A program made the translations under genes and the position numbers. Positions 34,043-55,664 of a stretch of DNA of 64,000 nucleotides are shown one piece after another (the stretch's first letter is position 1; each line of letters opens with the position of its first letter). The notes below the pieces were generated by a model. It was not told where the DNA came from and searched no databases. It saw only the letters and a program-made list of their open reading frames with translations. Source of the DNA: Methanoplanus limicola DSM 2279 (GTDB lineage: Archaea > Halobacteriota > Methanomicrobia > Methanomicrobiales > Methanomicrobiaceae); NCBI RefSeq assembly GCF_000243255.1, contig NZ_CM001436.1, positions 2,897,175 through 2,961,174 of the forward strand, read 5' to 3'.

Positions 34043-34771
34043 TTAGAGATCATATTTGATTTGTTTAAGATGATACTTAAGATTCTCATAATTCTGAATG
34101 GTATCTATCTCTTCAACATATTCTGTAATATAACCCAGAACCTTATCCCCATAGAGTGAATAATTATCAAGAACTAAATTAGGCAAATAAATATCTATAT
34201 ATCCATTTGGATGATATGCCTTTGGAAAAAATTGTCTTGGTAAATTATAATATTCCGGGCGCGGGTCATCCGGGAAAAAACCATCAAGATATTTCCCATT
34301 AAATTTCATCATTTTCTGAGGTGGTTCAGATAATTCATGAACTGAACGCAACGAAGTTGCATCTTTATCATTCTTAATTAAATTAATTGCTTCACACAGC
34401 TTACCCGGATTTCTGAGTGGAGTTGTAGGCCTCAGATTTACAAGATATTTTGGAATTATACCTTCATTTTCTATATACCAGTTAAGGAGATGCAGAATAA
34501 AATAAATATCCTGGGAAGTGTCTGTTGAAATTTCATTTGGCCTTAGGAAAGGAATATCAGCACCATATTTTTTTGCAACATTAGCAATCTCATAAGAATC
34601 AGTAGAAACAATTGTCCGGGTTATTTCATTACAATTTATCCCAGACATTATTGAATATGCTATTAAAGGGAAACCATTCAAATCAATTAAATTTTTTTTA
34701 GGAATACCTTTAGAGCCACCTCTTGCTGGGATTACAGCCCACACTTCATTAACAATTTTCACAGAAATCAC
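34043..34771 (-). CDS. CMP-nonulosonate cytidylyltransferase (NeuA/LegF-like)
   Basis: A 242-residue cytidylyltransferase activating a 2-keto-3-deoxy sugar acid to its CMP ester. The motif WAVIPARGGSKGIPKKNLIDLNGFPLIAY is the CMP-NeuAc synthetase signature. LVNLRPTTPLRNPGKLCEAI provides the metal- and substrate-binding part. The acceptor residues differ from KdsB (48321), so it likely uses a different sugar acid. The 107-base gap to the methyltransferase gene upstream carries no gene. Confidence 0.87.
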   Translation of the reverse strand: MISVKIVNEVWAVIPARGGSKGIPKKNLIDLNGFPLIAYSIMSGINCNEITRTIVSTDSYEIANVAKKYGADIPFLRPNEISTDTSQDIYFILHLLNWYIENEGIIPKYLVNLRPTTPLRNPGKLCEAINLIKNDKDATSLRSVHELSEPPQKMMKFNGKYLDGFFPDDPRPEYYNLPRQFFPKAYHPNGYIDIYLPNLVLDNYSLYGDKVLGYITEYVEEIDTIQNYENLKYHLKQIKYDL

Positions 34772-34877
34772 AATTTATTCATTTTATTATTTATCTAAAT
34801 TAATTATCAATTATAACTAATGTACATTACAATAATTGCCATGCAAACATACAAACCAACACATAAATCTAAAATAA

Positions 34878-35813
34878 TTAAATAGGTTCCCCAATAAACA
34901 TCATATTATCGGTCACCCCATATTTTGCAAGAATGTTCTTATAATCTTTATCAAAATTACTAATGAGAAGATTCAATTCATCTTTTATAGAGCTATCAAC
35001 TGTATCCACAATTGGAAATTTTGGTTCACTTAATCCCATATGGCAACTTTTCTGAGGTTTACCCAATAATATCCAGTTTAGGTGATTTAAAAAATTATAG
35101 TCCTGGAAAAATAAAATATCTCCATTATATCCTGCGGCCCTCATGACTTGCATAAATGAATCCGGAGTGAAATAAAATGTATGAGCTTCATGGAAGTAAA
35201 AATTATGATATTGTTCATTATTGAACAATGACAATAGTGGATCTAACAAATTAGGGACTTCTATCACTATTTTACCTTTTGGTTTAATATAGGATTTAAG
35301 CAGTTTTAAAAACTCAATTGGCTCATCAACATGTTCCAGAGTCTGCAGCGCGCAAACAATATCAAAAGATTTTTTTTCCAAACCTGAATCTTTTAAATCA
35401 CAACCATAGGTTTTACAATTACAAACTTTACTTGCAAATTCAGCTGCACGGGAATCATAATCAACCCCAATTACATCTTTCAGGAAAGGTTTTATATTGT
35501 AAATAAAATGACCTGTTGAGCATCCAACTTCCAATAACCTCATATTAGAATTAATAAGAGGTTTTAATAATTTAAGTCGATTTTCTTGATAATTTACATA
35601 TGAATTAAAAATATCATCATAATTAGAAGTAGTTTCGATATCCGGACCAAAACGTTTTCTATATTCCTCATCATAAAATAATTTAGAATCATCTTTTCTT
35701 TCTTTAAGGATTCCAATTTTACACTTATCACAATAATAGACAATTCCCGGCCCACCCCTTAAACGTTGTGAAATTATTGATAAATCTTTGTTCTTACAAA
35801 GAATACATTCCAT
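34878..35813 (-). CDS. Zinc-ribbon SAM methyltransferase
   Basis: A 311-residue methyltransferase with an N-terminal four-cysteine zinc ribbon (CILCKNKDL and YYCDKCKIG) followed by a class I fold: RLLEVGCSTGHFIYNIKPFLKDVIGVDYDSRAAEFA, then FDIVCALQTLEHVDEPIEFLKLLKSYIKPKGKIVIEVPN. These two-domain proteins often methylate sugars in O-antigen clusters. The reading frame is visibly A/T-rich. It stands between the synthase and the cytidylyltransferase, which hints at methylation of the same sugar acid. Confidence 0.82.
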   Translation of the reverse strand: MECILCKNKDLSIISQRLRGGPGIVYYCDKCKIGILKERKDDSKLFYDEEYRKRFGPDIETTSNYDDIFNSYVNYQENRLKLLKPLINSNMRLLEVGCSTGHFIYNIKPFLKDVIGVDYDSRAAEFASKVCNCKTYGCDLKDSGLEKKSFDIVCALQTLEHVDEPIEFLKLLKSYIKPKGKIVIEVPNLLDPLLSLFNNEQYHNFYFHEAHTFYFTPDSFMQVMRAAGYNGDILFFQDYNFLNHLNWILLGKPQKSCHMGLSEPKFPIVDTVDSSIKDELNLLISNFDKDYKNILAKYGVTDNMMFIGEPI

Positions 35814-35842
35814 TTTGAGCTCCTGTATTTTTTTGTTAAAAT

Positions 35843-36679
35843 TTAGTTATCTTCAAAATATCTCAGTTTTTTAGCAACACCTGCTTCACGTTCTGAGACT
35901 TTTTTATCTGTACTTCCCATAATAGCAGGAATACGTCTTATTGACTGGTTCATTTCTCTTAATTCTTCCTTTATAATTGATGCTGCCTGATCACTGCCAT
36001 ACATAGATTTATCGAGTGTAATATGTCGTTCTATTACGCTTGCGCCAAGAGCAGCAGCAATAATTGACGGAAGAATATCAGCTTCATGTCCGCTGTATCC
36101 AACAGGACACCCATATTTATCATTTAAAATATTCATTATAGACAAATTGATTTCATCATCAGCTGAAGGATATGTTGAAACACAGTGAAGAAGAGTAAAA
36201 GGACAGTTATTATTTTTAAATATATCTACAGCATTATCAATGTCATCAAAGGTGCTCATCCCTGTTGAGATAAATGTCATCTTCTTCTCTTCAGCGATTT
36301 TCTCAATCAAAGGAATATTTGTAAGCATTGCGGATGCTACTTTATTGAATTTATGATTGTACTGTCTCAGAAACAACTGGCTATCTATGTCCCATGCTGA
36401 TGCAAGCCAGTCTATTCCTTTTTGCTTACAATAAATGTCAATTTCATCATATTCTTCTTTACTAAACTCAAGACCTTCCTTCTGTTCACGCTGGGTTGTT
36501 CCCCAGGGACTTTCTCTTGCTGAATTAAGTACATCTTCGGAATATACTGTTTCTATTGTACGTTTCTGGAATTTAACTGCGTCACAACCTGTTTCGACCG
36601 CAGCATCAATTAGTTTTTTTGCGATTTCAACGTCACCATTATGATTAATTCCTACTTCTGCAATAATATATACTGACAT
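35843..36679 (-). CDS. NeuB-family sugar-acid synthase lacking a SAF domain
   Basis: A 278-residue PEP-dependent condensing enzyme: VYIIAEVGINHNGDVEIAKKLIDAAVETGCDAVKFQKRT, STGMSTFDDIDNAVDIF and PVGYSGHEADI... VIERHITLDKSMYGSDQAAS are NeuB signatures. Normal NeuB, LegI and PseI proteins are about 335-350 residues, ending in an SAF antifreeze-like domain that closes the active site of the partner subunit. That domain is absent, as in a Kdn-9-phosphate- or Kdo-8-phosphate-type synthase using a phosphorylated sugar. The KdsC-like phosphatase next door fits a phosphorylated product. Confidence 0.85.
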   Translation of the reverse strand: MSVYIIAEVGINHNGDVEIAKKLIDAAVETGCDAVKFQKRTIETVYSEDVLNSARESPWGTTQREQKEGLEFSKEEYDEIDIYCKQKGIDWLASAWDIDSQLFLRQYNHKFNKVASAMLTNIPLIEKIAEEKKMTFISTGMSTFDDIDNAVDIFKNNNCPFTLLHCVSTYPSADDEINLSIMNILNDKYGCPVGYSGHEADILPSIIAAALGASVIERHITLDKSMYGSDQAASIIKEELREMNQSIRRIPAIMGSTDKKVSEREAGVAKKLRYFEDN

Positions 36680-36710
36680 ATTCAAAACCTTTGAGAATTC
36701 TTTTACTTAT

Positions 36711-37208
36711 TTATTGAGCTAATAGCATATCAATAAATTCTCTTACTGCACCATATCCTCCCTTTTTATTCAGAAGAATATCTGCAACGCTGATTGCTGT
36801 TTCATGAGAATCATTAACTGCCACACTTATTCCTACATTTTCCATGCATGAAACATCATTAGAATCATTCCCAATATAAGCAATATTAATTAGTGAAATA
36901 TTCTTATCGTTTGAGATACGTTCTAAAAGTTCCAGTTTATCATTGATGCCCGAATAACATTCAATTGATAGTTTTGAACATCTAGCTTTAACTACAGCAT
37001 TTTTTTCTTTTGATATTACAATAGTATCAATATTTTTTGATTCTCTCAATAATTCAATACCCAAACTGTCACTTCTATTACATGCTACTGATTCAACCCC
37101 GTTTTTATCTACAAATACTCTATTGTCTGTAAGAACCCCATCAAAATCAAGAACAAGCAATTGAATTTTCTTTAATTTACTTAGAATTTCATCTTTCAAA
37201 TAAGTCAT
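36711..37208 (-). CDS. KdsC-type HAD phosphatase
   Basis: A 165-residue phosphatase of the KdsC subfamily (C0 cap, tetrameric in relatives). Motif I LLVLDFDGVLTDNRVFVDKNG has the nucleophilic aspartate, and YIGNDSNDVSCMENVGISVAVNDSHETAISVADILL is motif III/IV. KdsC relatives remove the phosphate from Kdo-8-P or Kdn-9-P. The ATG at 37208 is used; a TTG at 37199 with GGAGG at a better distance is an alternative start. It overlaps the end of the SIS gene by 20 bases. Confidence 0.87.
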   Translation of the reverse strand: MTYLKDEILSKLKKIQLLVLDFDGVLTDNRVFVDKNGVESVACNRSDSLGIELLRESKNIDTIVISKEKNAVVKARCSKLSIECYSGINDKLELLERISNDKNISLINIAYIGNDSNDVSCMENVGISVAVNDSHETAISVADILLNKKGGYGAVREFIDMLLAQ

Positions 37209-37767
37209 CCTCCACAATTTCACAGATAATATGTGCAACCATTATATGTGCTTCCTGAATCATAGGAGTCACATTTGAAGGTATATTAAGAACAATATCA
37301 GCCAGATCAGAGGTATAATCAGTATTAGACCCAGTAAATAATATCGTGACTGCCCCTTGATCTTTTGCTTTTTCTAATCCAATAATTACAGATTTTGACC
37401 TTCCACTTGTACTAATCCCAATAACTACGTCATTTTTATTGACATAGGCTTCTACCTGACGTGAAAATATTTCATCGAAACTACTGTCATTCCCAATTGC
37501 AGTAAGAATAGAAGTATCAGTTGTGAGGGCCTGTGCAGGAAGACTTCTCCTCCAGAAATTTAATTTATTTATAAATTCAGCTGCAATATGCTGTGAATCT
37601 GCAGCAGAACCACCACACCCAAATAGATATACACAACCATTGCCAGTGTAACAATTTTTTATGTGAGCAGATGATTGTTTTATATTCTCCAATAGTACAT
37701 TATCAGAAATAATTGAATCAATTACTTTTTTATGTTCCAATATGTGATTTATTATTCTTTTATCCAT
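37189..37767 (-). CDS. SIS-domain phosphosugar isomerase (GmhA-like)
   Basis: A 192-residue SIS-domain protein close to GmhA, which converts sedoheptulose-7-phosphate to heptose-7-phosphate. FGCGGSAADSQHIAAEFINK and VVIGISTSGRSKSVIIGLEKAKDQGAVTILFTGSN are the two phosphosugar-binding signatures. Some SIS-only proteins are arabinose-5-phosphate or mannose-6-phosphate isomerases, so the true substrate is open. The preceding transaldolase overlaps its longer GTG start; ATG 37767 is used here. Together with transketolase and transaldolase it may supply an unusual sugar phosphate. Confidence 0.83.
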   Translation of the reverse strand: MDKRIINHILEHKKVIDSIISDNVLLENIKQSSAHIKNCYTGNGCVYLFGCGGSAADSQHIAAEFINKLNFWRRSLPAQALTTDTSILTAIGNDSSFDEIFSRQVEAYVNKNDVVIGISTSGRSKSVIIGLEKAKDQGAVTILFTGSNTDYTSDLADIVLNIPSNVTPMIQEAHIMVAHIICEIVEDDLFER

Positions 37768-37772
37768 AGTAA

Positions 37773-38435
37773 TCACAAATCATTATTAGAATTATTTTTT
37801 ACAGATCTCCAGTCATCCATAAATTTCTGGAGTCCCGCATCCGTAAGATTGTGGTTAAACATTAATGTTAATACATTTGGCGGAACTGTAGCAACATGAG
37901 AACCCGATAATGCTGCATCAAGAACATGCATCGGGTTTCTGATACTGGCAGTAATTATCTCTGAATCAAAATTGTAATTTTCCAGGATTTTGGCAGTTTC
38001 TTTTACTATATTAATACCAGAATATCCAATATCATCCAGTCTTCCGACAAAAATGCTCACGTAAGTTGCACCGGCCTTGGCAGCCAGAAGAGCTTGATTT
38101 GAAGAAAAAATAAGGGTGACATTTGTTTTGACACACATTTCACTCAGTTTTTTGGTTGCTTTTAATCCATCAGGTGTCATCGGAACTTTAACAACAACAT
38201 TATCTGCAATGGAAGATAGTTCTAATGCCTCTTTTATCATTTCATCACAATTTTGACTGATGACTTCAAGGCTGACAGGTCCTTTTACGGTGTCGCAGAT
38301 TTTTTTGAGTAAATCATTCTGGCTGGAACTTTTCATCTCTTTTGCAAGAAGACTTGGGTTTGTTGTAACTCCGTCTATGATATGAGAATATTTTTCGATT
38401 TCATTCAAATTTGCTGTATCAAGAAAAAATTTCAT
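37773..38435 (-). CDS. Transaldolase (fructose-6-P aldolase type)
   Basis: A 220-residue short transaldolase (TalC/FSA type): MKFFLDTANLNEIEKYSHIIDGVTTNPSLLAKE has the family N-terminus; the Schiff-base lysine is in VVVKVPMTPDGLKATKKL. The C-terminal segment contains TYVSIFVGRLDDIGYSGI and HVATVPPNVLTLMF. It transfers a dihydroxyacetone unit between sugar phosphates. As a dedicated copy inside a surface-sugar operon it probably feeds the sugar-acid pathway rather than central metabolism. Confidence 0.9.
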   Translation of the reverse strand: MKFFLDTANLNEIEKYSHIIDGVTTNPSLLAKEMKSSSQNDLLKKICDTVKGPVSLEVISQNCDEMIKEALELSSIADNVVVKVPMTPDGLKATKKLSEMCVKTNVTLIFSSNQALLAAKAGATYVSIFVGRLDDIGYSGINIVKETAKILENYNFDSEIITASIRNPMHVLDAALSGSHVATVPPNVLTLMFNHNLTDAGLQKFMDDWRSVKNNSNNDL

Positions 38436-38441
38436 TTTATA

Positions 38442-39389
38442 TCACCTAAATTTAAGCAGTTCATTTGCTGATTCAATAACCGTCTCTGATGTAAGATTAA
38501 AATGTACAAATAGCTCATCAACTTTCCCCGAAGTTCCGTACATATCATTAACTCCAAGAATCTTCATTGGAACTGGGTAGTTCTGAATTAAGACTTCGGC
38601 TATAGCAGATCCCAAACCACCTATAACATTATGTTCCTCTAATGAGATTACGTGCCCTGTTTCTTTGGCGATATCAATAATCTGTTCTTTATTTAGTGGC
38701 TTAATTGTATGAACATTGATTACTTTTGCCGAAATTCCCTCATTTTCAAGCTTTTTTGCTGCAATAAGAGCTTTTCTTATCATATTACCTGTTGTAAATA
38801 TGGAAATATCAGTTCCGTCTTTTAGGATTGGATATTCTTTTGGATTATATTTGTAATCATCGTCAAAGATCTTAGGAGATTTTCTGCGTGATAATCGGAC
38901 ATAAACCGGACCGTTATAATCTACAGCAAATTCAATTACAGATCGGGTTTCTGCTGGATCTGCGGGTATAATTACATGCATATTTGGAATTGCCCTCATA
39001 ATGGCAATATCCTCAAGTGACTGATGTGTAACCCCGTCCCCACCAAGACTAAGACCAGAATGAGTCATAACCATTTTCACATTTAATTTATCAAGTGCAA
39101 TGGTGTTTCTGATCTGCTCCCATCCTCTTCCGCATCCAAATATTGAAAATGTTGTTACAAAGGGTATTTTTCCACAAAGAGACATCCCGGCAGCAATATC
39201 CAGCATATTTTGCTCAGCAATACCAACATTTATGAATCTATCGGGAAATTTATCCCGGAAAATATCTGTTTTAGTTGAAGAACATAAATCGGCATCCAGA
39301 ACAACAATCTCCTCATTTAATTTACCAAGTTCACATAGTTTATTACCAAAGGCATCTCGATTATTATTACAATTATTTAGATCGTACAT
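38442..39389 (-). CDS. Transketolase, C-terminal subunit
   Basis: A 315-residue half-transketolase with the pyrimidine-binding and C-terminal domains: FINVGIAEQNMLDIAAGMSLCGKIPFVTTFSIF has the catalytic glutamate that activates thiamine diphosphate, and YVRLSRRKSPKI lies later. Its ATG overlaps the stop of the N-terminal subunit gene (TAATG). The split form is usual in archaea; together the two proteins interconvert C5, C6 and C7 sugar phosphates. Confidence 0.92.
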   Translation of the reverse strand: MYDLNNCNNNRDAFGNKLCELGKLNEEIVVLDADLCSSTKTDIFRDKFPDRFINVGIAEQNMLDIAAGMSLCGKIPFVTTFSIFGCGRGWEQIRNTIALDKLNVKMVMTHSGLSLGGDGVTHQSLEDIAIMRAIPNMHVIIPADPAETRSVIEFAVDYNGPVYVRLSRRKSPKIFDDDYKYNPKEYPILKDGTDISIFTTGNMIRKALIAAKKLENEGISAKVINVHTIKPLNKEQIIDIAKETGHVISLEEHNVIGGLGSAIAEVLIQNYPVPMKILGVNDMYGTSGKVDELFVHFNLTSETVIESANELLKFR

Positions 39390-40219
39390 TAGTACCGTCC
39401 CTCCAGATACAAAATGCCTTCTTGTAGTTCTTCTTCTGTCAAAGGTTTGGTGTGATATTCAATTTTATCCTCAATAAACGGAATACCACAACCCTTTACA
39501 GTATTGGCAACTATAAGTGTTGGTTTATTCTTTGATTCATTTGCAAATTTATAAGCATTAAGAAGTTCATCAAAATTATGCCCATTTATCTCAATTATAT
39601 TCCAACCCAGTGACTTCCAGCATGAACTAATATCTCCTAAGGACATTATATCATCAATTGATCCTGTCGATTGCAATTTGTTATTGTCAATAATTACAAC
39701 AAGGTTATCTAATTCATAATGAGCCGCAGACATTGCTGCCTCCCACACCTGACCTTCCTGACACTCACCATCCCCCAACAATACAAAAACACGGTACTTT
39801 TTATTATTCATCTTGCCTGCAAGGGCAATTCCCACAGCAACGGAAATTCCCTGTCCAAGAGAACCGGAAGAACTGTCTAATCCTGGCAAATTATAACTTT
39901 TGACAGGATGGCCCTGTAATCTGCTGTTTAATTGCCTTAATGTTAACAACTCATCAGAATGAAAATAACCTTTTTCTGCAAGAGTGGCATACAATCCCGG
40001 AGCAGCATGGCCTTTACTTAAAATAAATCTGTCTCGGTCGGGATCTGACGGATTACTTGGATCTACATTCATTTCATTAAAATATAATGAAATCAGAATA
40101 TCAACACAGCATAGCGAACTTGAATAATGACCACCACCCACATAAGCAGTCATTTCAATAACTTTTTTACGAATAGATTTTGAGGTATTATTCAAAAACT
40201 TAATATTATTTTCAACCAT
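39389..40219 (-). CDS. Transketolase, N-terminal subunit
   Basis: A 276-residue half-transketolase carrying the thiamine-diphosphate binding domain: GDGECQEGQVWEAAMSAAHYELDNLVVIIDNNK is the GDG-x25-NN motif, and GHAAPGLYATLAEKGYF precedes it. The ATG at 40219 is chosen because AGAGGG lies just upstream; the ATG-less extension to 40249 adds ten unlikely residues. It is the first gene of the minus-strand block. A 103-base divergent region separates it from the dTDP-sugar genes. Confidence 0.92.
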   Translation of the reverse strand: MVENNIKFLNNTSKSIRKKVIEMTAYVGGGHYSSSLCCVDILISLYFNEMNVDPSNPSDPDRDRFILSKGHAAPGLYATLAEKGYFHSDELLTLRQLNSRLQGHPVKSYNLPGLDSSSGSLGQGISVAVGIALAGKMNNKKYRVFVLLGDGECQEGQVWEAAMSAAHYELDNLVVIIDNNKLQSTGSIDDIMSLGDISSCWKSLGWNIIEINGHNFDELLNAYKFANESKNKPTLIVANTVKGCGIPFIEDKIEYHTKPLTEEELQEGILYLEGRY

Positions 40220-40287
40220 TATCCCTCTGATATTTAGAATGGATAACATATAGAAGTTATCTTCTTCACTTAAAAAGTTCCCAACTC

Positions 40288-45659: not shown

Positions 45660-46589
45660 ATGAAGCCAAAAATCGCAATTACAATAAGAAACATTGATTC
45701 TTCTTATTGTTTATTCAATAAAATTAAAGAGAATTTTGACTTGAATTACATAAATATTACTAATAAAAGACTTTCAGAAGAAGAAGTTATCAGTGCAATT
45801 AAGGAAGCCGAAGTTGCTATTGCCGGAACTGAGCCATACAATAAAAATGTTTTAAACTCAACAGATAAGTTAAAAGTAATATCACGTGTAGGTGTTGGCC
45901 TTGACAATATTGACCTCAATACAGCTTCAGATAAAAATATAATAATATGCAATACCCCAAATGCTCCAACCCAGGCAGTTGCCGAACATACAATTGCATT
46001 AATCCTTGATATTTGCAAAAATATTGTGACCTATAATCTCAAAGACAATAGAATCAGTGCAAACACCTTTATCGGAAAACTGCTCTCCGGAAAAACCATT
46101 GGAATTATTGGTCTTGGAAGAATTGGTCGTACGGTTGGAAAACTTCTTTCAGCCTTCGGATGTGAAATTGGCTACTATGATCCTTATCTTAAGGAGAAAG
46201 AAACTTACAATGGCTGGATAAATTACTCCTCAATAGATGAACTGCTTGAAAAATCCGACATTGTTACTTTACATATGCCGCCCAAAGATGACAAATCGCC
46301 AATATTAGACAAAAAATCTTTTGAGCACTTCAAAAAAGGTGCAATATTAATCAATACCGCAAGAAGTTCACTGATTGATGAAAAAGCATTCCTTGACGCA
46401 ATTGATAAAGGAATTATTACAGGTGCAGGTCTTGACGTATATGATACTATAATAGAGGATCAGATACAAAATTATCCTCAGATTATACTAACTCCGCATG
46501 TTGCTTCCAATACGAAAGAATCACGCGAAGAAATGGAAAAAGAAGCAATTGAAAATTTAATAAATGCATTTAAAGGAATTAATCCATGA
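45660..46589 (+). CDS. D-2-hydroxyacid dehydrogenase (SerA-like)
   Basis: A 309-residue NAD-dependent dehydrogenase of the D-isomer-specific 2-hydroxyacid family. VISRVGVGLDNIDLNTASDKNIIICNTP, the Rossmann motif IIGLGRIGRTVGKLL, GAILINTARSSLIDEKAFLDAI (catalytic Arg) and PQIILTPHVASNTKESREEME (catalytic His) are intact. It lacks the extra C-terminal domain of serine-pathway SerA. Within this block it may oxidise or reduce a keto-acid precursor of the ulosonic acid. It overlaps the next gene by 4 bases (ATGA). Confidence 0.85.
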   Translation: MKPKIAITIRNIDSSYCLFNKIKENFDLNYINITNKRLSEEEVISAIKEAEVAIAGTEPYNKNVLNSTDKLKVISRVGVGLDNIDLNTASDKNIIICNTPNAPTQAVAEHTIALILDICKNIVTYNLKDNRISANTFIGKLLSGKTIGIIGLGRIGRTVGKLLSAFGCEIGYYDPYLKEKETYNGWINYSSIDELLEKSDIVTLHMPPKDDKSPILDKKSFEHFKKGAILINTARSSLIDEKAFLDAIDKGIITGAGLDVYDTIIEDQIQNYPQIILTPHVASNTKESREEMEKEAIENLINAFKGINP

Positions 46590-47506
46590 AAGCACTCGTA
46601 ACCGGCGGCAAAGGATTTCTGGGGAGACATATTGTTAATGAACTGCTAAAACAGAATATAGAAACAGTAACATACGATATAATAGAGGAACAGGAGGAAA
46701 ATTACAGCAATAATAATAGAGAGAATAATAATGATAATAATCTCTTAACTTACGTAAAAGGAGATATTCTTGATAAATCAGGACTGAAAAAAGCAATGGA
46801 AGGATGCGATCTGGTATTTCATACGGCTGCAATTGCGGACATAAATATTGTCAGAAATATCCCTGAAAAAACAATGGAGATTAATGTTTTAGGAACTACA
46901 AGATGTCTTCAGGCTGCAAGAGAATGTGGTGTCAAAAGGTTCTTATTTGCAAGCTCAGTATATTCCGCAGGAAACCACGGTTCTTTTTATAGTGTCTCCA
47001 AAAAAGCGGGAGAATCACTTTGTAAAACATATTATGAAGAGTTTGGACTCGAATATACTATTCTAAGATACGGAAGTCTTTACGGAACAGAAGCAAACCA
47101 TTGGAATTTCATATACGGCCTATGCAAGCAACTTCTGTTAACCGGAAAGTATACATACACCAGCTCTCCGGATTCACTGCGTGAATACATCAACATATTA
47201 GATGCATCAAGAGAATCTGTCAGAATTGCACGAGAACAGCAATTCGCCAACACGGTTGTAATGCTAGCAGGACACCAGAGAATGATGGTAAAAGAACTTT
47301 TCAAGATGATCGAGGAGATCATAGGAAAAGATATCTCGATAAAATATGAAAAAACGGCTAACAACAGCCATTACGTTGTAACACCTTATTCTTATGAATC
47401 TGATGTCCCAATCAGGATAAACCTGCCTACATATGTAGATATATCAGAGGGTATTTTGGAATGCCTGAAAGCCGTAGATAAAGATTTAAAAGGTGAAAAA
47501 GATTAA
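46586..47506 (+). CDS. NAD-dependent sugar epimerase with Asn-rich insert
   Basis: A 306-residue extended SDR: ALVTGGKGFLGRHIVNEL Rossmann motif, FHTAAIADINIVRNIPEKTMEINVLGTTRCLQAAR and catalytic FYSVSKKAGES. Residues about 36-52 are an asparagine-rich low-complexity stretch (NNNRENNNDNN), not seen in normal relatives, and probably a surface loop. It overlaps the dehydrogenase gene upstream by 4 bases. It may epimerise a precursor sugar for the aldolase-kdsB pathway; the exact substrate is unknown. Confidence 0.8.
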   Translation: MKALVTGGKGFLGRHIVNELLKQNIETVTYDIIEEQEENYSNNNRENNNDNNLLTYVKGDILDKSGLKKAMEGCDLVFHTAAIADINIVRNIPEKTMEINVLGTTRCLQAARECGVKRFLFASSVYSAGNHGSFYSVSKKAGESLCKTYYEEFGLEYTILRYGSLYGTEANHWNFIYGLCKQLLLTGKYTYTSSPDSLREYINILDASRESVRIAREQQFANTVVMLAGHQRMMVKELFKMIEEIIGKDISIKYEKTANNSHYVVTPYSYESDVPIRINLPTYVDISEGILECLKAVDKDLKGEKD

Positions 47507-47512
47507 TTAGAG

Positions 47513-48319
47513 GTGAAATCTATTACTACGCTTAAGAAAAAAATCAAATCCAAAGAAGTTACTATTGGGTCATGGATTACGATCGGTCACTCTTCAATTG
47601 CTGAAATATTATCATTGGGAGGATTTGACTGGTTAACAATCGATATGGAGCATAGTGCCATAACTCTTGCAGAAGCACAAAACCTTATCCAGACAATAGA
47701 ACTATCGAGATGCGTACCCCTAGTAAGAGTTGGATCCAATGATCCAAACCTGATTAAGAGAGTAATGGATGCTGGATCACACGGTGTTATTGTCCCACAA
47801 GTAAACAGCGTTCAGGAAGCAAAGAATGCAGTAAATGCAGTTAAATACCCACCAAATGGGAACAGAGGAGTGGGTCTTGCACGAGCCCAGGGTTATGGTC
47901 TAGATTTTGAAAAATATAAAAAATGGAATGATGAAAACAGCATAGTCATCATCCAAATAGAGAATATTCTGGGCGTTGAAAATCTGGAGGAAATAATTGC
48001 AGTTAAGGGTGTTGACGGTTTTATTGTCGGCCCCTATGATCTCTCCGCATCACTTGGTGTACCCGGGGAATTTGAGCATCCCCGTTACCTTCAGGCTATG
48101 GAAAAGATCAAGACTGTTATAGAGAAGAAAGATACTATTGCCGCTGGATTTCATGTTGTTCCGCTGGAACCAGAGATGGTATTTGACAAGATCAAAGAGG
48201 GTTACTGTTTCCTGGCATACAGCCTTGATTCATTATTCATCGCAGATTATGCAAGGAGAGATCTCTTAAAGATCAAAGGAGATTTATTCTCAGAAATAGA
48301 TTTCATAAAGGAGATATAA
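47513..48319 (+). CDS. HpcH/HpaI family aldolase
   Basis: A 268-residue class II pyruvate aldolase barrel: TIGSWITIGHSSIAEILSLGGFDWLTIDMEHSAITLAEAQ, PLVRVGSNDPNLIKRVMDAGSHGVIVPQVNSVQEA and NRGVGLARAQGYG, with metal ligands Glu in IIQIENILGVENLEE and Asp in GFIVGPYDLSASLG. Family members join pyruvate to an aldehyde to make 2-keto-3-deoxy sugar acids (or split these). The GTG start at 47513 lies inside GAGGTGA; it is used because the N-terminal residues resemble relatives. It is directly before kdsB with one base between. Confidence 0.85.
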   Translation: MKSITTLKKKIKSKEVTIGSWITIGHSSIAEILSLGGFDWLTIDMEHSAITLAEAQNLIQTIELSRCVPLVRVGSNDPNLIKRVMDAGSHGVIVPQVNSVQEAKNAVNAVKYPPNGNRGVGLARAQGYGLDFEKYKKWNDENSIVIIQIENILGVENLEEIIAVKGVDGFIVGPYDLSASLGVPGEFEHPRYLQAMEKIKTVIEKKDTIAAGFHVVPLEPEMVFDKIKEGYCFLAYSLDSLFIADYARRDLLKIKGDLFSEIDFIKEI

Positions 48320-48320
48320 A

Positions 48321-49070
48321 ATGAAGATTGTAGGAATTATCCCAGCAAGGATGGGTTCTTCAAGATTTCAGGGAAAACCACTTGTACCAATATGTGGAAA
48401 ACCAATGATTGAGCATGTATACAGGAGATCAGCTATGAGCCTTACACTTGATGATCTTTATGTAGCCACATGCGACCAAGAGATATACGAAACAGTTAGA
48501 GAATTTGGCGGAAAGGCAATAATGACATCAAACTGCCATGAGAGGTGTACAGACCGGATTGCTCAAGCAGTAGAGAATATTGAAGCAGACATTATTGTAA
48601 ATATTCAGGGAGATGAACCCCTGATCTTTCCTGAAATGATCGATCAGGCCCTAGAACCATTGTTAAGCGATTCAGCAATCGTATGTTCCAATCTAATGGC
48701 TGACATAAATAATGAGAAGGACTTTGAAGATCCCAACGAAGTCAAGGTAGTTGTTGACCTAGATGGTTTCGCACTGTATTTTTCAAGGGAACCGATACCT
48801 TCTAGGAAAAAGGGATCCAGCGATTTTGTCGGCCTCAAACAGGTCTGCATCATTCCTTTCAGAAGGGATTTCCTCTTCAAATATACTAAACTATCTCCAA
48901 CTCCTCTGGAAATTATAGAATCAGTTGATATGCTGAGGGCAATTGAACATGGCTATAAAGTCAAAATGGTGAAAACTCCTTACGAAACATATAGTGTTGA
49001 TACAATAGAAGACCTGATGCATGTTGAAGAGATAATGAAAGATGACGAATTATTCAGGAAATACTCATAA
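48321..49070 (+). CDS. kdsB: CMP-Kdo synthetase-like cytidylyltransferase
   Basis: A 249-residue KdsB-type enzyme forming CMP-3-deoxy-octulosonate or a close analogue: IGIIPARMGSSRFQGKPLVPICGKPMIEHVYRRS, CTDRIAQAVENIEADIIVNIQGDEPLIFPEMIDQAL (the QGDEP motif) and the late TPYETYSVDTIEDL. Kdo is typical of Gram-negative bacteria and rare in archaea. No KdsA- or KdsD-like gene is beside it; its only likely source of a 2-keto-3-deoxy acid in this block is the aldolase one base upstream. Confidence 0.85.
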   Translation: MKIVGIIPARMGSSRFQGKPLVPICGKPMIEHVYRRSAMSLTLDDLYVATCDQEIYETVREFGGKAIMTSNCHERCTDRIAQAVENIEADIIVNIQGDEPLIFPEMIDQALEPLLSDSAIVCSNLMADINNEKDFEDPNEVKVVVDLDGFALYFSREPIPSRKKGSSDFVGLKQVCIIPFRRDFLFKYTKLSPTPLEIIESVDMLRAIEHGYKVKMVKTPYETYSVDTIEDLMHVEEIMKDDELFRKYS

Positions 49071-49536: not shown

Positions 49537-50835
49537 CTACATGCAAGTCGCCGCAATGAATCTTCCAAGTTTTTTCCATCTTTCACCAACACTCTCTTTT
49601 CCAAAGATACTCTGATCAATGATACTCAGGAACTCGTGAGCTTTCTCTGCAAAAACTTTAGACCATAACAATGGACCATAACGAGGTTTTTCATCTTCAT
49701 CAAGTGATGCTACCATTTTTTTGTACAGATTTCTGCTCAAAACAAGCCTTATTAACATAGAATAGACATGGATCAGAGCAAGCGGTTCCCTGGCTAAAAG
49801 AAATTTCCCAAGATCATAGTCACTTTTCATCTCCTTGAATAACAGCTCAATTATCCATCGATACCGATATAGCTGATAAATCTCGTCCTTTTTGTAAGCA
49901 TCACCAGGTAAGTTTGTTACATAATTATGCCAAATCTTGTCATTTTCATCCCAGAAACAGACGACTCTGAAATCTGCATTAATTCTTTTTTTGCCCCATG
50001 GTTTTTCTTTATCTCTTCCGGTAAAGGTGCATATTAGCTCAATTTCACCGCTTTTTGGAATTCTATCAAGAAAGTCACCTAAATTCATTCCTTTTTCAAA
50101 AAAACTATCAAAAATCTTAGATTCTGATACAATTTCTTTTAATTTTGGTTTGGCTGAATTCTTGACCCGACTAACAAAAAATCCTCCTCTTTCATTGATG
50201 TTTGCCAAAACATAATGCGAATAATAGCCTAAATCAAAAAGGAAAAGAACGTCTTTTATGTTCCCATCAATCCTGATTTTCTTGTAGTCATGCGTTTTTT
50301 CATCAGTAATTTCAAAGGATTTAAGTGAATGTGATACAGCACTATATACTGCATGAATTTTCAATCCAGCAGCTTCACTTCGTGATCTTGCCGGTGGAAA
50401 TTCCTCTGCAAGTTTTTTGCTCAGTCGAATGATGCTGCTGTCCTGTATCAAGACATCTTTCAGGATCCCAACCGGACCCTTTAATCTTGCAGGTGAATCT
50501 GCAAAGGTTATATTGATATAGTGATCCAGCATCGCTCGTAAGAAAAGAGCCATATTACTGTCAAAACGATTGTGAAAACTCTGATATCTAATCTCTTTTG
50601 TCCCTGCAGATTTCCCACCCAGGTCTTGATAGTCACGATGAATTTCTTCAAGTGTAGGTTTACAGTGACTACTGATCCCAAAAATAAGGACGTATAAGAG
50701 ATATGTCGGATCTAATTTCTTCATCCTCTTAATAAATCCGGTACTGCGTGCTTTTTCCATAATAACTTCAGGAGGGAGTAATTTCTCCTGCCAATTCCTC
50801 AGGGAATTGTTATCATCTTTTTGCTGATGATTCAT
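49537..50835 (-). CDS. IS4-family DDE transposase
   Basis: A 432-residue transposase of the IS4 family, full length and uninterrupted. DDE-type residues are visible in VLIQDSSIIRLSKKL (first Asp), VLFLFDLGYYSHYVLANI (second Asp) and the diagnostic Y-x2-R-W-x3-E-x6-K signature YRYRWIIELLFKEMKSDYDL. It catalyses cut-and-paste movement of the element 49200-50965. The frame and lack of stops suggest the element is still functional. Confidence 0.9.
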   Translation of the reverse strand: MNHQQKDDNNSLRNWQEKLLPPEVIMEKARSTGFIKRMKKLDPTYLLYVLIFGISSHCKPTLEEIHRDYQDLGGKSAGTKEIRYQSFHNRFDSNMALFLRAMLDHYINITFADSPARLKGPVGILKDVLIQDSSIIRLSKKLAEEFPPARSRSEAAGLKIHAVYSAVSHSLKSFEITDEKTHDYKKIRIDGNIKDVLFLFDLGYYSHYVLANINERGGFFVSRVKNSAKPKLKEIVSESKIFDSFFEKGMNLGDFLDRIPKSGEIELICTFTGRDKEKPWGKKRINADFRVVCFWDENDKIWHNYVTNLPGDAYKKDEIYQLYRYRWIIELLFKEMKSDYDLGKFLLAREPLALIHVYSMLIRLVLSRNLYKKMVASLDEDEKPRYGPLLWSKVFAEKAHEFLSIIDQSIFGKESVGERWKKLGRFIAATCM

Positions 50836-51016: not shown

Positions 51017-52528
51017 ATGAAAAAATGTAAAATCCTGTTCATATACCCAACATATTACAGAGTAACAGGACTCCCCGTAGGGATTGCCTCCTTGTCAGCC
51101 GTTCTAAAGGAGGCAGGTCATTCTGTAAAAATATTTGAAACCAGTTTTTACCCTGAAATTGCTGATGATAATTCTTTTGAAAAGGATCAAAACGTGACTC
51201 GCGCAAAAAGGAAAATTTCAAAACAAATTGCCAATGATGATGCAATAAAAGATAATAAAACAACAATAAAAGATGACCTATACTCATTAATCAAGGATTA
51301 CTCCCCGGACATTATAGGATTTTCAATACTAGAGCCGAATTACACACAAAGCAGAATTCTAGCAGGTTATATTAAGGAAGAATTCCCTGAAATTCCCCTT
51401 ATTGCAGGAGGTATATTACCTACATTGGCCCCCGAACTGTTGATTGAAGACAGTCTCTTTGATATTATCAGCATCGGTGAGGGTGAAAGTTCTCTTTCAG
51501 AACTGGCAAACAGAATAGCCATAGGAAAAAGCTATGATAATATTAATGGGCTCTGGATACGAAAAAAGGATCGAATAATTAAAAATAGCCAGTTGAAACT
51601 TCATGACGTGAATACCCTCCCTTTTCCGGATTTCAGCGAATTCGATGAAAGACTTTTTTATAAACCAATGCAAGGCCATTTTTATAAGATGATAAACATT
51701 GAAACATCACGCGGGTGTTTTTATAATTGCACATATTGTGCGGCCCCTAGACTCAGGAAGATTTACAGGGAGAATGTAAATGACAAATATAACAGAAACA
51801 TGGATATGGAGAAGGTTATCAAGCAGATTCATTACCAAGTAAACAAATATTCACCTGAATTCATTTACTTCTCCAGTGAAAACTTCCTTGATCTCACTGA
51901 TGCCGATTTTGAGATGTTTATCAATGAATATGAAAAAATAAGACTTCCCTTCTGGATACAAACCAGAATTGAAACAATAAACAAAGACAGACTTTCCGAA
52001 CTTAAGAGGGTAGGACTTTTCTGGATGACAATGGGGTTGGAGCACGGAAACGAAAATTTCAGAAAAAATTTCCTCAGGAGAAGATACCGCAATGAGGACT
52101 TTTACGAAAAAATCAGCATACTAAGTGAACTAGAGATCGGAGCCTCAATAAACAATATATTTGGATTTCCAAATGAAAACAGAGAGCTTATTTTTGATAC
52201 GATAAATACAAACAGAAAATTACTGGATATACATCCAAAACTGGATATCAACATATTTCTTTTTGAACCGTATCACGGTTGCTTCCTGCATGAAATTTGC
52301 GTTAATGAAGGCCTTATAGACGATGAATTTATAGTAACAGAGGGCACTCTTAACGAGACTTCAATCCTAAATTTTTCTAAAGAGCATAAAATGATGCTAA
52401 AAGGTTTAGTCAGGACATTTCCACTTTATCTTAGGTTACCTGAGAAATACTGGGATAAGATCAGAATTGCAGAAAATGATAATCCTGAAGGCAATGAAAT
52501 GTTAAATGAGCTCTTTAAACTGTTATAG
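51017..52528 (+). CDS. B12-binding domain radical SAM protein
   Basis: A 503-residue protein with an N-terminal cobalamin-binding Rossmann domain (about 1-190: ILFIYPTYYRVTGLPVGIASLSAVLKEAGHSVKIFE and DIIGFSILEPNYTQSRILAGYI) followed by the radical SAM barrel. The cluster motif is GCFYNCTYCAAPRL (Cx3Cx2C). The classical DxHxxG B12 box is not obvious, so the domain may not bind B12 base-off. Such enzymes methylate or rearrange unactivated carbons. In this glycan locus the substrate may be a sugar or a lipid carrier. Its promoter lies next to the IS. Confidence 0.85.
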   Translation: MKKCKILFIYPTYYRVTGLPVGIASLSAVLKEAGHSVKIFETSFYPEIADDNSFEKDQNVTRAKRKISKQIANDDAIKDNKTTIKDDLYSLIKDYSPDIIGFSILEPNYTQSRILAGYIKEEFPEIPLIAGGILPTLAPELLIEDSLFDIISIGEGESSLSELANRIAIGKSYDNINGLWIRKKDRIIKNSQLKLHDVNTLPFPDFSEFDERLFYKPMQGHFYKMINIETSRGCFYNCTYCAAPRLRKIYRENVNDKYNRNMDMEKVIKQIHYQVNKYSPEFIYFSSENFLDLTDADFEMFINEYEKIRLPFWIQTRIETINKDRLSELKRVGLFWMTMGLEHGNENFRKNFLRRRYRNEDFYEKISILSELEIGASINNIFGFPNENRELIFDTINTNRKLLDIHPKLDINIFLFEPYHGCFLHEICVNEGLIDDEFIVTEGTLNETSILNFSKEHKMMLKGLVRTFPLYLRLPEKYWDKIRIAENDNPEGNEMLNELFKLL

Positions 52529-52661: not shown

Positions 52662-53654
52662 ATGAAAGAAGAGGATATTAGACCTAGAAAAATATTTGAT
52701 GAATACCTTGCTCTTGCCAAAAAAGATGTTAATAATTATTTTTTGACTAAGCCATTTTACTATGTATCCTGCCCCGCCTGCAAGGGAGAAAATAGTAGGT
52801 TCAAATTTCGTAAATATGGCTTTGATTATGAGGAATGCGATAAATGCAAAACATTATATGTAAATCCAAGACCTACACCCGAATCCTTCAGTGATTACTA
52901 CAGTAATTCTCCATCCGTCAAGTATTGGGCCACAAATTTTTACAAAGAAACAGAATCCAGCAGAAGAGAGCTTATCATAAAACCCAAGGCAAAACTTGTT
53001 AAAAGGTATTTGGACAAATATTTGGGTGATACAAATAATACATCCATTATTGACATCGGGGCAGGATATGGTGTTTTTTGTGAGGAACTACAGTTGCTGG
53101 CCGATGAAGGTACAACTGTTGTGGCGATCGAACCCTCAGATTCTCTAAATAGGATATGTATAGAAAAAGGACTTAAAACAGTTCCAAAATTTATAGAAAA
53201 TGTTTATAATAGTGATTTTGAAGGTATGGATATAAGCTGTGCCATATCATTTGAATTGCTGGAGCACCTTCATAATCCGGAATTATTTATCCAAAAATGT
53301 AGTGAGATTATCTCACCGGAGGGGCTTTTGATAATCACAACTCTTACATGGGATGGGTTTGATCTCCAAGTACTGCAGGATAAATCAAGCAGCATTCATC
53401 CACCTCACCATTTAAATTTTTTCACAAAAAAATCCCTTTCAATTCTTTTGGAGAGAAATGGTTTTGAGGTATGTGAGATCACAACACCTGGAAAACTCGA
53501 TGTTGATATAGTATCCAAGCAATTATCAGATATAAAGGATCCATTTATCAGAAAATTAATTGAATCTGACCAGGAGATAAAGGATAACTTCCAGACTTTC
53601 CTCCAAGAAGCTGGACTAAGTTCACATATGATGGCTGTTGCAAAAAAGAAATGA
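52662..53654 (+). CDS. Zinc-ribbon SAM methyltransferase
   Basis: A 330-residue methyltransferase with an N-terminal zinc ribbon (CPACKGENSRFKF and YEECDKCKTLYVNPRP) and a class I fold: SIIDIGAGYGVFCEELQLLADEGTTVVAIEPSDSLNRIC and ISCAISFELLEHLHNPELF. It has the same domain plan as the gene at 34878 but with little direct similarity. It is probably a sugar O- or C-methyltransferase. It follows the radical SAM gene by 133 bases. Confidence 0.82.
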   Translation: MKEEDIRPRKIFDEYLALAKKDVNNYFLTKPFYYVSCPACKGENSRFKFRKYGFDYEECDKCKTLYVNPRPTPESFSDYYSNSPSVKYWATNFYKETESSRRELIIKPKAKLVKRYLDKYLGDTNNTSIIDIGAGYGVFCEELQLLADEGTTVVAIEPSDSLNRICIEKGLKTVPKFIENVYNSDFEGMDISCAISFELLEHLHNPELFIQKCSEIISPEGLLIITTLTWDGFDLQVLQDKSSSIHPPHHLNFFTKKSLSILLERNGFEVCEITTPGKLDVDIVSKQLSDIKDPFIRKLIESDQEIKDNFQTFLQEAGLSSHMMAVAKKK

Positions 53655-53687: not shown

Positions 53688-55565
53688 TCATATTATAAAA
53701 TAACTCATTTCTTCCGCATCTTCCGGATTGAAGAATTTTTTCTTCATATCCTCCCCAAAAATCAGTAATTTTTCTCTTTCCTTTGTTGACAACCGTAAGT
53801 ATTTATTCAGTGATTTTCTGAATTCATCACTATCATAACAGATGGATACAAAACTCAAATCAGAATATTCAAACGGATTTAAATTCAGCGCAGAGTATTT
53901 GGCCAGCAGAATTGTAGGAATACCAAGGACAGCAGCTTCAACAATCGAACTAGATGCTGTTGAGATTACAACTGCTGCTGATTTAAGAAGAACTTCATTT
54001 TTCTCTTCTTTAAATTCAAATTTCCCCGACATGCCTTTAGCATTTAGGATATCCAAGAAAGCCAATATAATTTTTTTCCCGTGATCTGGATGAGATTTTA
54101 AATAGACATTTAATACACCATTTAATCCGTCCAGAATATCACAAACATTTATCAGTATTTCAAATGCGTCATTCTTATCTCCAGGAAGCAAAAGAAGAAT
54201 GCTACCAGGTATAGGCATATTCTGATTATGAATTCTGAATAAGTATGAATACCTCAATGCCAGACTTGTCTTTACAGGAACATGAGTCAGGTACTTCCTA
54301 ACTTTAATGCTCTCTCTAACCCCCGTGGTGAGAATAATATCAGGTAGCAATCCAGATTCGTATTCAGAATCAAGTGGATATAATCCCAGATAATTTGAGA
54401 AATGTATAAAATGCTGAACTCCTATAATTTTTATAACTTGAGATACATTATTAACTGCCAGACAAAGTGCTTTATCCTGCAACTGATTCTCATGCCAACA
54501 GATTATTCGTTCAATTTTACCCCTGGATACATCTCCTAATCTTAAAAATAAATAATATACTAAGATACTCTTAAATATTCCATCAAAACAGACCCATTTA
54601 TTATCACAGGAATCTGCAAATGAAATATCAATATCTCTAAAATAAGGTAATTTTTCATTAAAAGTTACTGCTTTAACAGCCATATTTAAAGACATTAAAT
54701 AATCAAAAATAGTTAAATAATCTTCTTTAATAATAAAAAATCTATCATTTGCCCGGATTTTTTTGTACAGATTTAACTTATTCAATTTTGTTTCAGTCAA
54801 AGTTGGGTGATAAATCACGTTATATCCATTTTTTTTTAGATAGGATTCTAATCCTGGGAAATAACGATCATTAAAAGAACCGTCTTCAGCAAAATTGGAT
54901 TCATATACAAACAAATCTATTAAAGCAGTTTTACCATCTAAGAAAGAACTTATATTTTTATTCTTCTTACTGTTACTTTTAAAACTTATTTTAGATATTT
55001 TTGCAAAAGTGAAGTTAATAAACGCCTTTAATATAGATTTCCCTATTTCAGCAAATGCCTGCCATAAGAAATAGAATTTACCACGATATGGCCTTGATAT
55101 TGATATAACTGAAATATTTTCATCATCAGCCCATTTTTCAATGAGTACACCAGTAGAATATGACTCAACAACAATTACTATTTTTTTACCCGGATAATTA
55201 CTACAAACTTCCTTTACAAGCTCTAAATAACAGACATTTTGAAATACTTCACTCAGATAAATATTTCTTGAGGATAACGGCGTAAACCACCATTCAAATA
55301 TATCATTATTATTCCGGTTAACATCATCAATATAGTGATTAAAATCATCACGAATTCGATCTGATATTCTGTCGAGTTTCTCTGAAATTTCGATTAATTC
55401 AAATTTATCCTTAAAATAAAACTCATATTCTTTAAACTTTAAATAATCCCTGCCAAAGTATAGCCAATAACTCTCATTATCACTAAAATAGCTAATTTGA
55501 ACCTTATTCAACTTGAAATGAGTACTATATATCAAAATAATCCTATTTTTACCCTCACAACCCAT
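53688..55565 (-). CDS. GT-B-like surface carbohydrate transferase (putative)
   Basis: A protein of about 625 residues, mostly A/T-rich codons. The C-terminal half resembles GT-B or capsule-type transferases: KIIGVQHFIHFSNYL, DIILTTGVRESIKVRKYL, a lone LLLPGDKNDAFEIL and SAAVVISTASSSIVEAAVLGIPTILLAKYSALNLNPF. The QH and SSSIVEAAVLGIP patterns are similar in kind to those in CDP-glycerol and Kdo transferases and also in the LIC12162 protein at 27830. The ATG at 55565 is favoured because AGGTGA lies four bases upstream. Function is inferred only. Confidence 0.6.
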   Translation of the reverse strand: MGCEGKNRIILIYSTHFKLNKVQISYFSDNESYWLYFGRDYLKFKEYEFYFKDKFELIEISEKLDRISDRIRDDFNHYIDDVNRNNNDIFEWWFTPLSSRNIYLSEVFQNVCYLELVKEVCSNYPGKKIVIVVESYSTGVLIEKWADDENISVISISRPYRGKFYFLWQAFAEIGKSILKAFINFTFAKISKISFKSNSKKNKNISSFLDGKTALIDLFVYESNFAEDGSFNDRYFPGLESYLKKNGYNVIYHPTLTETKLNKLNLYKKIRANDRFFIIKEDYLTIFDYLMSLNMAVKAVTFNEKLPYFRDIDISFADSCDNKWVCFDGIFKSILVYYLFLRLGDVSRGKIERIICWHENQLQDKALCLAVNNVSQVIKIIGVQHFIHFSNYLGLYPLDSEYESGLLPDIILTTGVRESIKVRKYLTHVPVKTSLALRYSYLFRIHNQNMPIPGSILLLLPGDKNDAFEILINVCDILDGLNGVLNVYLKSHPDHGKKIILAFLDILNAKGMSGKFEFKEEKNEVLLKSAAVVISTASSSIVEAAVLGIPTILLAKYSALNLNPFEYSDLSFVSICYDSDEFRKSLNKYLRLSTKEREKLLIFGEDMKKKFFNPEDAEEMSYFII

Positions 55566-55664
55566 AATTTCACCTAAAAACTGAATAGGATAATATACTA
55601 TCCACAAATCATTCACAAAATACAATTACAAATAATTGTAATATCACCAAAAATTAAACCCAAA

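Follow-up and report, generated by a model that had tools for sequence, protein, structure and literature searches.

A conserved aldolase-KdsB gene row in Methanoplanus limicola and a possible phosphoenolpyruvate-independent route to CMP-activated sugar acids

We analyzed a 64,000-nucleotide stretch (the window) of the chromosome of the archaeon Methanoplanus limicola DSM 2279 (contig NZ_CM001436.1, positions 2,897,175 to 2,961,174), in which four open reading frames (ORFs), all on the plus strand at 45660-49070, encode in this order a dehydrogenase (DH), an epimerase-like protein (EPI), an aldolase (ALD) and a KdsB-family cytidylyltransferase. DH (45660..46589, 309 aa; PF02826, 6.8e-47) is a D-2-hydroxyacid dehydrogenase resembling phosphoglycerate dehydrogenase (PGDH-like), EPI (46586..47506, 306 aa; PF01370, 8.9e-37) is an extended short-chain dehydrogenase/reductase (SDR) of the NAD-dependent epimerase/dehydratase family, ALD (47513..48319, 268 aa; PF03328, 1.3e-33) is a pyruvate-type class II aldolase of the HpcH/HpaI family, and KdsB (48321..49070, 249 aa; PF02348, 3.7e-50) falls among the cytidine monophosphate (CMP)-ulosonate cytidylyltransferases as a subtype with an altered acid-sugar pocket. 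The tight linkage described in the initial annotation was recovered in full: DH and EPI overlap by four bases (ATGA), six bases separate EPI from ALD, which starts with GTG, and a single base lies between ALD and KdsB, with a GGAG ribosome-binding site just 5' of the latter.

The source chromosome is one contig of 3.2 Mb and is 99% complete. Profile searches of this genome with PF00793 and TIGR01362 found no KdsA, the phosphoenolpyruvate (PEP)-dependent synthase of 3-deoxy-D-manno-octulosonic acid (Kdo) formation, and thereby ruled out a copy concealed elsewhere; the row's own ALD is the only HpcH/HpaI gene (n=1), so a paralogue blurring the linkage is also ruled out. The row lacks NeuB as well as KdsA, as first annotated. 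The genome's single NeuB, however, lies inside the window, in an other-strand row at 34043-40249 that is weighed below. A search covering the 64-kb window found neither a HAD phosphatase nor a PF04199 cyclase, both of which accompany the row elsewhere.

The archaeal survey queried KdsB alone, with the aldolase kept out of the query, and was run on 60 relatives, on 232 genomes from the order and on 393 from the phylum; sequence of up to 20 kb surrounding the matches was then read. KdsB proved rare in archaea, as had been stated (14 of the 232 genomes of the order and 14 of the 393 of the phylum sample). HpcH/HpaI and KdsA were searched in all 20 KdsB-bearing archaeal genomes: six have KdsA adjoining KdsB (G001, G065, G402, G284, G370 and G328), 11 lack KdsA and have KdsB linked to an aldolase (G000, G195, G173, G190, G015, G036, G032, G064, G019, G058 and G144, the last of which is frame-shifted in a fragmented assembly), and three have neither KdsA nor a linked aldolase (G504, G385 and G073). 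The exact order DH-EPI-ALD-KdsB is also found in G195 (locus L026).

A second survey started from the aldolase. We aligned ten row aldolases, scanned 85,000 species with this alignment (A1) and clustered the neighbors at 80 new loci together with the archaeal ones; since the seed aldolases were KdsB-linked, the resulting counts hold for their clade and not for the superfamily as a whole. The recurring genes are the aldolase (85 loci), DH (64), KdsB (60), EPI (52), a HAD phosphatase (49), a PF04199 cyclase (27) and a second, NeuA-like cytidylyltransferase (20). A cytidylyltransferase gene lies on the same strand within 4 kb of 57 of the 60 closest aldolases (240 bits or more); it is KdsB in 41 cases and NeuA-like only in 16, and one of the three exceptions begins at a contig end. 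By our own estimate (some 3 cytidylyltransferase genes in 3,000 and about 8 neighbors) the chance expectation is roughly 1%, and the conserved linkage rules out chance adjacency. A KdsB or NeuA-like gene is still present at 60 of 68 aldolase loci when Nitrosomonadaceae are set aside, and KdsB lies directly beside the aldolase (within about 70 bp) at 43 of 58 loci. Linkage is often missing among more distant aldolase relatives (present in 5 of the 12 that score below 200 bits). The surroundings of the 80 scanned aldolase loci yielded no KdsA, and NeuB occurs within 9 kb of the aldolase-KdsB locus in 12 of about 90. The linked loci cover about 20 phyla, many as single metagenome-assembled contigs; cultured carriers include Nitrosomonas marina, Nitrosospira multiformis, N. 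briensis, Winogradskyella tangerina, Draconibacterium mangrovi and Mucilaginibacter segetis. Conservation of the aldolase-kdsB pairing in other genomes, a test set in advance, was thus confirmed by both surveys, and we refer to the recurring gene set as the cassette.

Several loci vary on these themes. Three archaeal loci (L015 11164-14694, L016 5262-8785 and L031 3086-6597) form a subtype in which a second, HMGL-type gene, resembling 4-hydroxy-2-oxovalerate aldolase, stands beside the aldolase-KdsB pair together with a LdpA-like ferredoxin protein and a HAD protein. In G073 (L032 5533-10267), where KdsB occurs without KdsA or HpcH, an HMGL-type aldolase gene and a HAD gene lie nearby, possibly another aldolase-based pairing. 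At L047, L060, L061, L064 and L079 the aldolase and cytidylyltransferase are joined by a 3-dehydroquinate-synthase-like sugar-phosphate cyclase and, variously, by GFO/IDH/MocA, SIS and SDR genes, so that a different aldehyde possibly feeds the same core. In canonical archaeal Kdo rows (L042 8916-10301, L043 9613-10812 and L044 9677-10870) KdsB is apparently fused to a KdsC-like phosphatase domain and adjoins KdsA and KdsD.

ALD itself has an intact set of catalytic residues. It matches the HpcH/HpaI profile and carries the catalytic His and Arg and the metal-binding Glu and Asp of the family, and residues D44, H47, R72, E150 and D176, whose roles we take to be those assigned in HpaI, are invariant in 85 of 85 relatives. 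Its closest relative of solved structure is YfaU, a 2-keto-3-deoxy sugar aldolase, and in the aldolase tree the row-type enzymes fall on a different branch from YfaU and GarL of E. coli. Hydroxyketoacid aldolase entries also occur among its relatives, some HpcH/HpaI enzymes being users of hydroxypyruvate. No ALD relatives were found in viral contigs.

The partner of this aldolase changes from one lineage to another. About one in five linked cassettes has a NeuA-like activating enzyme, a protein unrelated to KdsB whose closest solved relatives are CMP-sialate synthetases, and on a quick, approximate aldolase tree the partner alternates between the two types, with at least 4-6 changes forced by the starred branches. 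Since two distinct CMP-transfer families exchange beside one aldolase, the aldolase product would be their substrate or its direct precursor; we regard this exchange as the strongest argument for an aldolase-based route, and it would otherwise be hard to explain. It also bears on the possibility that the aldolase is catabolic, degrading a 2-keto-3-deoxy acid to pyruvate, and stands beside KdsB as a matter of regulatory convenience. Characterized HpcH/HpaI enzymes are mostly catabolic. However, the aldolase is repeatedly paired with two CMP-ulosonate synthetase families that are unrelated to each other, which speaks for a 2-keto acid as their common intermediate, and the row differs from the surroundings of yfaU and garL in E. 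coli in lacking the dehydratase and transporter genes of a catabolic operon, so that we consider a catabolic aldolase very improbable.

We examined the row KdsB for signs of its substrate. It scores 325 bits against NCBIfam PRK13368, the KdsB subfamily (cut-off 255), and 175 against TIGR00466 (cut-off 155), and its predicted fold matches the CMP-Kdo complex 1gqc with a template modeling (TM) score of 0.93 and a Z score of 35. The cytidine triphosphate (CTP) loop residues R10, R15 and K19, the QGDEP motif and the substrate arginine of FSR are invariant in the cassette KdsBs. The Kdo-pocket motif H-x-G-x-Y with Q211 is absent, the row KdsB having Q-V-C-I-I and M at these places, and the same substitutions run through the cassette KdsBs: H181 to Q in 54 of 58, G183 to C in 45 of 58, Y185 to I in 49 of 58 and Q211 to M in 50 of 58. 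The first three positions belong to the second substrate motif of KdsB, RHIGVYAYR (PMC7717453), and Kdo contact has been proposed by docking (PMC7717453). Alignable canonical KdsBs retain H, G, Y and mostly Q, and in a tree of 79 KdsBs the cassette enzymes form a clade apart from the canonical ones (support 96/85). We take the pocket residues to touch Kdo from the 3K8D complex also. The changed Kdo-pocket signature fits a non-Kdo substrate, and the cassette product is probably not Kdo.

Nitrosomonadaceae offer a further view of this question. A compact KdsB-aldolase-DH-SDR(-HAD) row runs throughout the sampled members of the family (L059, L072, L080, L092, L099 and others), with a glycosyltransferase-like gene (cluster c7) placed divergently beside it. 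Neither KdsA nor KdtA was found in ten cassette-bearing Nitrosomonadaceae, and no second KdsB in the three checked, so KdsB is unlikely to serve ordinary Kdo-lipid A there; of the nine genes for Kdo2-lipid A, N. europaea has been reported to carry only lpxK (PMC3087551). Most other bacteria checked have KdsA and, in addition to the cassette KdsB, a canonical one. It might still be argued that the cassette makes ordinary Kdo by another route, the aldolase joining pyruvate to D-arabinose and KdsB forming CMP-Kdo, and condensation of pyruvate with arabinose to Kdo is indeed pyruvate-aldolase chemistry. The very close fold match to CMP-Kdo synthetases and the missing KdsA would agree with such a route. 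However, H181, G183, Y185 and Q211 are substituted across the cassette clade, Kdo-making bacteria retain their canonical KdsB beside the cassette one, and the Nitrosomonadaceae have no KdtA to use Kdo, all of which makes ordinary Kdo a distinctly improbable product.

The initial annotation had DH and EPI prepare the aldehyde for the aldolase, and this part of the proposal has become doubtful. DH matches the D-2-hydroxyacid dehydrogenase profile and has the catalytic Arg and His (R235 and H280, in 65 of 65), but its catalytic Glu-Pro motif is lost: the active-site stretch reads DVYDTIIED, altered and one codon shorter, where relatives have DVF..EPY, and the proline of the motif is retained in 64 of 65 DH relatives. 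With this motif lost, the window DH may be weak or dead. D-2-hydroxyacid dehydrogenases take alpha-hydroxy acids as substrates, so a role for DH in supplying an aldehyde is hard to credit. EPI carries the motifs GxxGFxG, S-YxxxK and R-[ED]-Y-[IV]-[HN]-x-x-D (R-E-Y-I-N/H-type); as the R-E-Y-I-H-type motif is usual for nucleoside diphosphate (NDP)-sugar SDRs, EPI may work on a nucleotide-bound sugar rather than on an aldehyde precursor. Neither gene is present near several aldolase-KdsB pairs (L015, L016 and L031).

These two genes also invite an oxidative scheme, in which the SDR and dehydrogenases would produce an aldonic acid, DH would oxidize its C2 and KdsB would activate the resulting 2-ketoaldonic acid, the aldolase supplying a precursor or catalyzing a side reaction. 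DH is, after the aldolase, the most frequent neighbor in the aldolase-first survey, and G504 and G385 combine a cassette-type KdsB with DH and SDR genes and no linked aldolase. Against this scheme, the aldolase is retained and DH is missing near the pairs at L081, L106 and L108 as well as at L015, L016 and L031, and the window DH is itself the one that has lost the Glu-Pro motif. We consider the oxidative scheme unlikely.

We therefore return to the aldolase route. Our preferred reading, to which we give a rough probability of 0.68, is that the row is one copy of a widespread cassette which makes a CMP-activated 2-keto sugar acid, probably other than Kdo, by way of an aldolase and without PEP. 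ALD would form the 2-keto sugar acid from a sugar-derived aldehyde and pyruvate, or possibly hydroxypyruvate, in a condensation that would take the place of the PEP-dependent synthase (KdsA or NeuB), and the neighboring cytidylyltransferase would then convert this acid to its CMP derivative for use in a surface glycan. A phosphorylated precursor or product is suggested by the HAD phosphatase that so often accompanies the pair. The genes, their conserved linkage, the intact aldolase and CTP-site residues, the missing KdsA and the changed pocket are read from sequence; from them we infer the direction, substrates and product of the aldolase reaction and what DH, SDR and, at other loci, the HAD phosphatase and the PF04199 cyclase contribute. 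Of the route as first proposed, the aldolase-cytidylyltransferase core without KdsA stands, and the roles given to DH and SDR and the identity of the sugar were left unsupported.

Several observations weigh against the aldolase route. The cassette-type KdsBs of G504 and G385, with neither a linked aldolase nor KdsA, suggest that the KdsB substrate may sometimes come otherwise; the scan was seeded with KdsB-linked aldolases; the characterized HpcH/HpaI enzymes have the mostly catabolic record mentioned above; a search of open-licence papers yielded no enzyme assay for any cassette member; and a NeuB-type synthase (35843-36685, minus strand) lies 9-13 kb from the DH-EPI-ALD-KdsB row.

This synthase belongs to a second, PEP-dependent-type ulosonic acid row on the minus strand (34043-40249), which comprises a split transketolase, FSA/transaldolase, a GmhA-like isomerase, a KdsC/Kdn-9-phosphatase-like HAD protein, the short NeuB-like synthase, a methyltransferase and a NeuA/PseF-like cytidylyltransferase (34043-34771, minus strand), and then aminotransferase, VOC, TIM-barrel and two SDR genes. 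Some of these genes are found again next to the aldolase cassette in L049, L077, L090 and L104. KdsB might accordingly activate the product of the NeuB-type synthase, leaving the aldolase unrelated, and the transketolase, transaldolase, GmhA-like and phosphatase-like genes at this distance, like the related sets that share cassette loci in some bacteria (L049, L077 and L104), would suit that arrangement. However, the NeuB row has its own NeuA/PseF-like cytidylyltransferase, and NeuB is missing within 9 kb at most of the other aldolase-KdsB loci, which makes a NeuB-derived substrate quite unlikely.

Downstream of KdsB, a transposase-like ORF (49537-50835, minus strand), IS4-type by eye, separates the row from a B12-binding radical SAM protein gene (51017..52528, plus strand), which adjoins or lies near the row in L026 and L039, a tentative association. 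A C-methyltransferase-like protein of the MT52 family (52662..53654, plus strand) is likewise tentatively associated, being found near aldolase-KdsB at 10 loci. The following gene (53688..55625, minus strand) encodes a putative GT-B type glycosyltransferase, a distant TIGR04326 relative that recurs near archaeal aldolase-KdsB loci. A structure search with its model, of middling quality (predicted local distance difference test, pLDDT, 69), returned only a GT-B/UDP-GlcNAc-epimerase-like fold. The protein is, tentatively, a candidate user of the CMP-sugar, and a GT-B enzyme of this kind may transfer the CMP-activated sugar acid.

The gene set is apparently undescribed so far. In the open-licence papers searched we found no description of an aldolase-kdsB pairing, of an aldolase-based CMP-ulosonate route or of an HpaI aldolase with an O-antigen or acylneuraminate cytidylyltransferase, and a negative limited to such papers is weak evidence of novelty. 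On balance we lean, by a little, toward the broader view that these loci represent an undescribed PEP-independent class of CMP-ulosonate pathway, in which an HpcH/HpaI aldolase is combined with interchangeable KdsB- or NeuA-like enzymes across about 20 bacterial and archaeal phyla, with the cassette KdsB as the sole KdsB seen in the examined Nitrosomonadaceae, where KdsA and KdtA are missing, and whose product is neither Kdo nor sialic acid. If true, this would add a conserved, aldolase-based way of building acidic surface sugars and would predict an unrecognized sugar acid on archaea, ammonia oxidizers, Bacteroidota and Campylobacterota; it would also warn that "CMP-Kdo synthetase" annotations outside makers of lipopolysaccharide may denote enzymes that do not handle Kdo.

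To our knowledge, the well-known routes to CMP-activated ulosonic acids all use a PEP-dependent synthase. The row shares its cytidylyltransferase family and fold with the CMP-Kdo pathway (KdsD-KdsA-KdsC-KdsB), present in the genus-mate G001 as a KdsD-KdsB-KdsC-KdsA row (L018), and CMP transfer to a 2-keto sugar acid is to be expected in both; it differs in lacking KdsA and KdsD, in the aldolase that would replace the PEP-dependent synthase, and in the changed KdsB pocket. With the NeuB- and NeuA-type pathways to CMP-activated sialic acid, 2-keto-3-deoxynononic acid (Kdn), pseudaminic acid and legionaminic acid it would have in common the CMP activation of an ulosonic acid, by a NeuA-like enzyme in some cassettes, but the row has no NeuB and no genes for an N-acetyl-hexosamine precursor, and the condensation would fall to the HpcH/HpaI aldolase. 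Finally, ALD shares the fold family and catalytic residues, and by its sequence presumably also the pyruvate-type aldol chemistry, of HpaI, GarL and YfaU/RhmA, which are members of catabolic operons, whereas the cassette aldolase is found in glycan loci beside a cytidylyltransferase.

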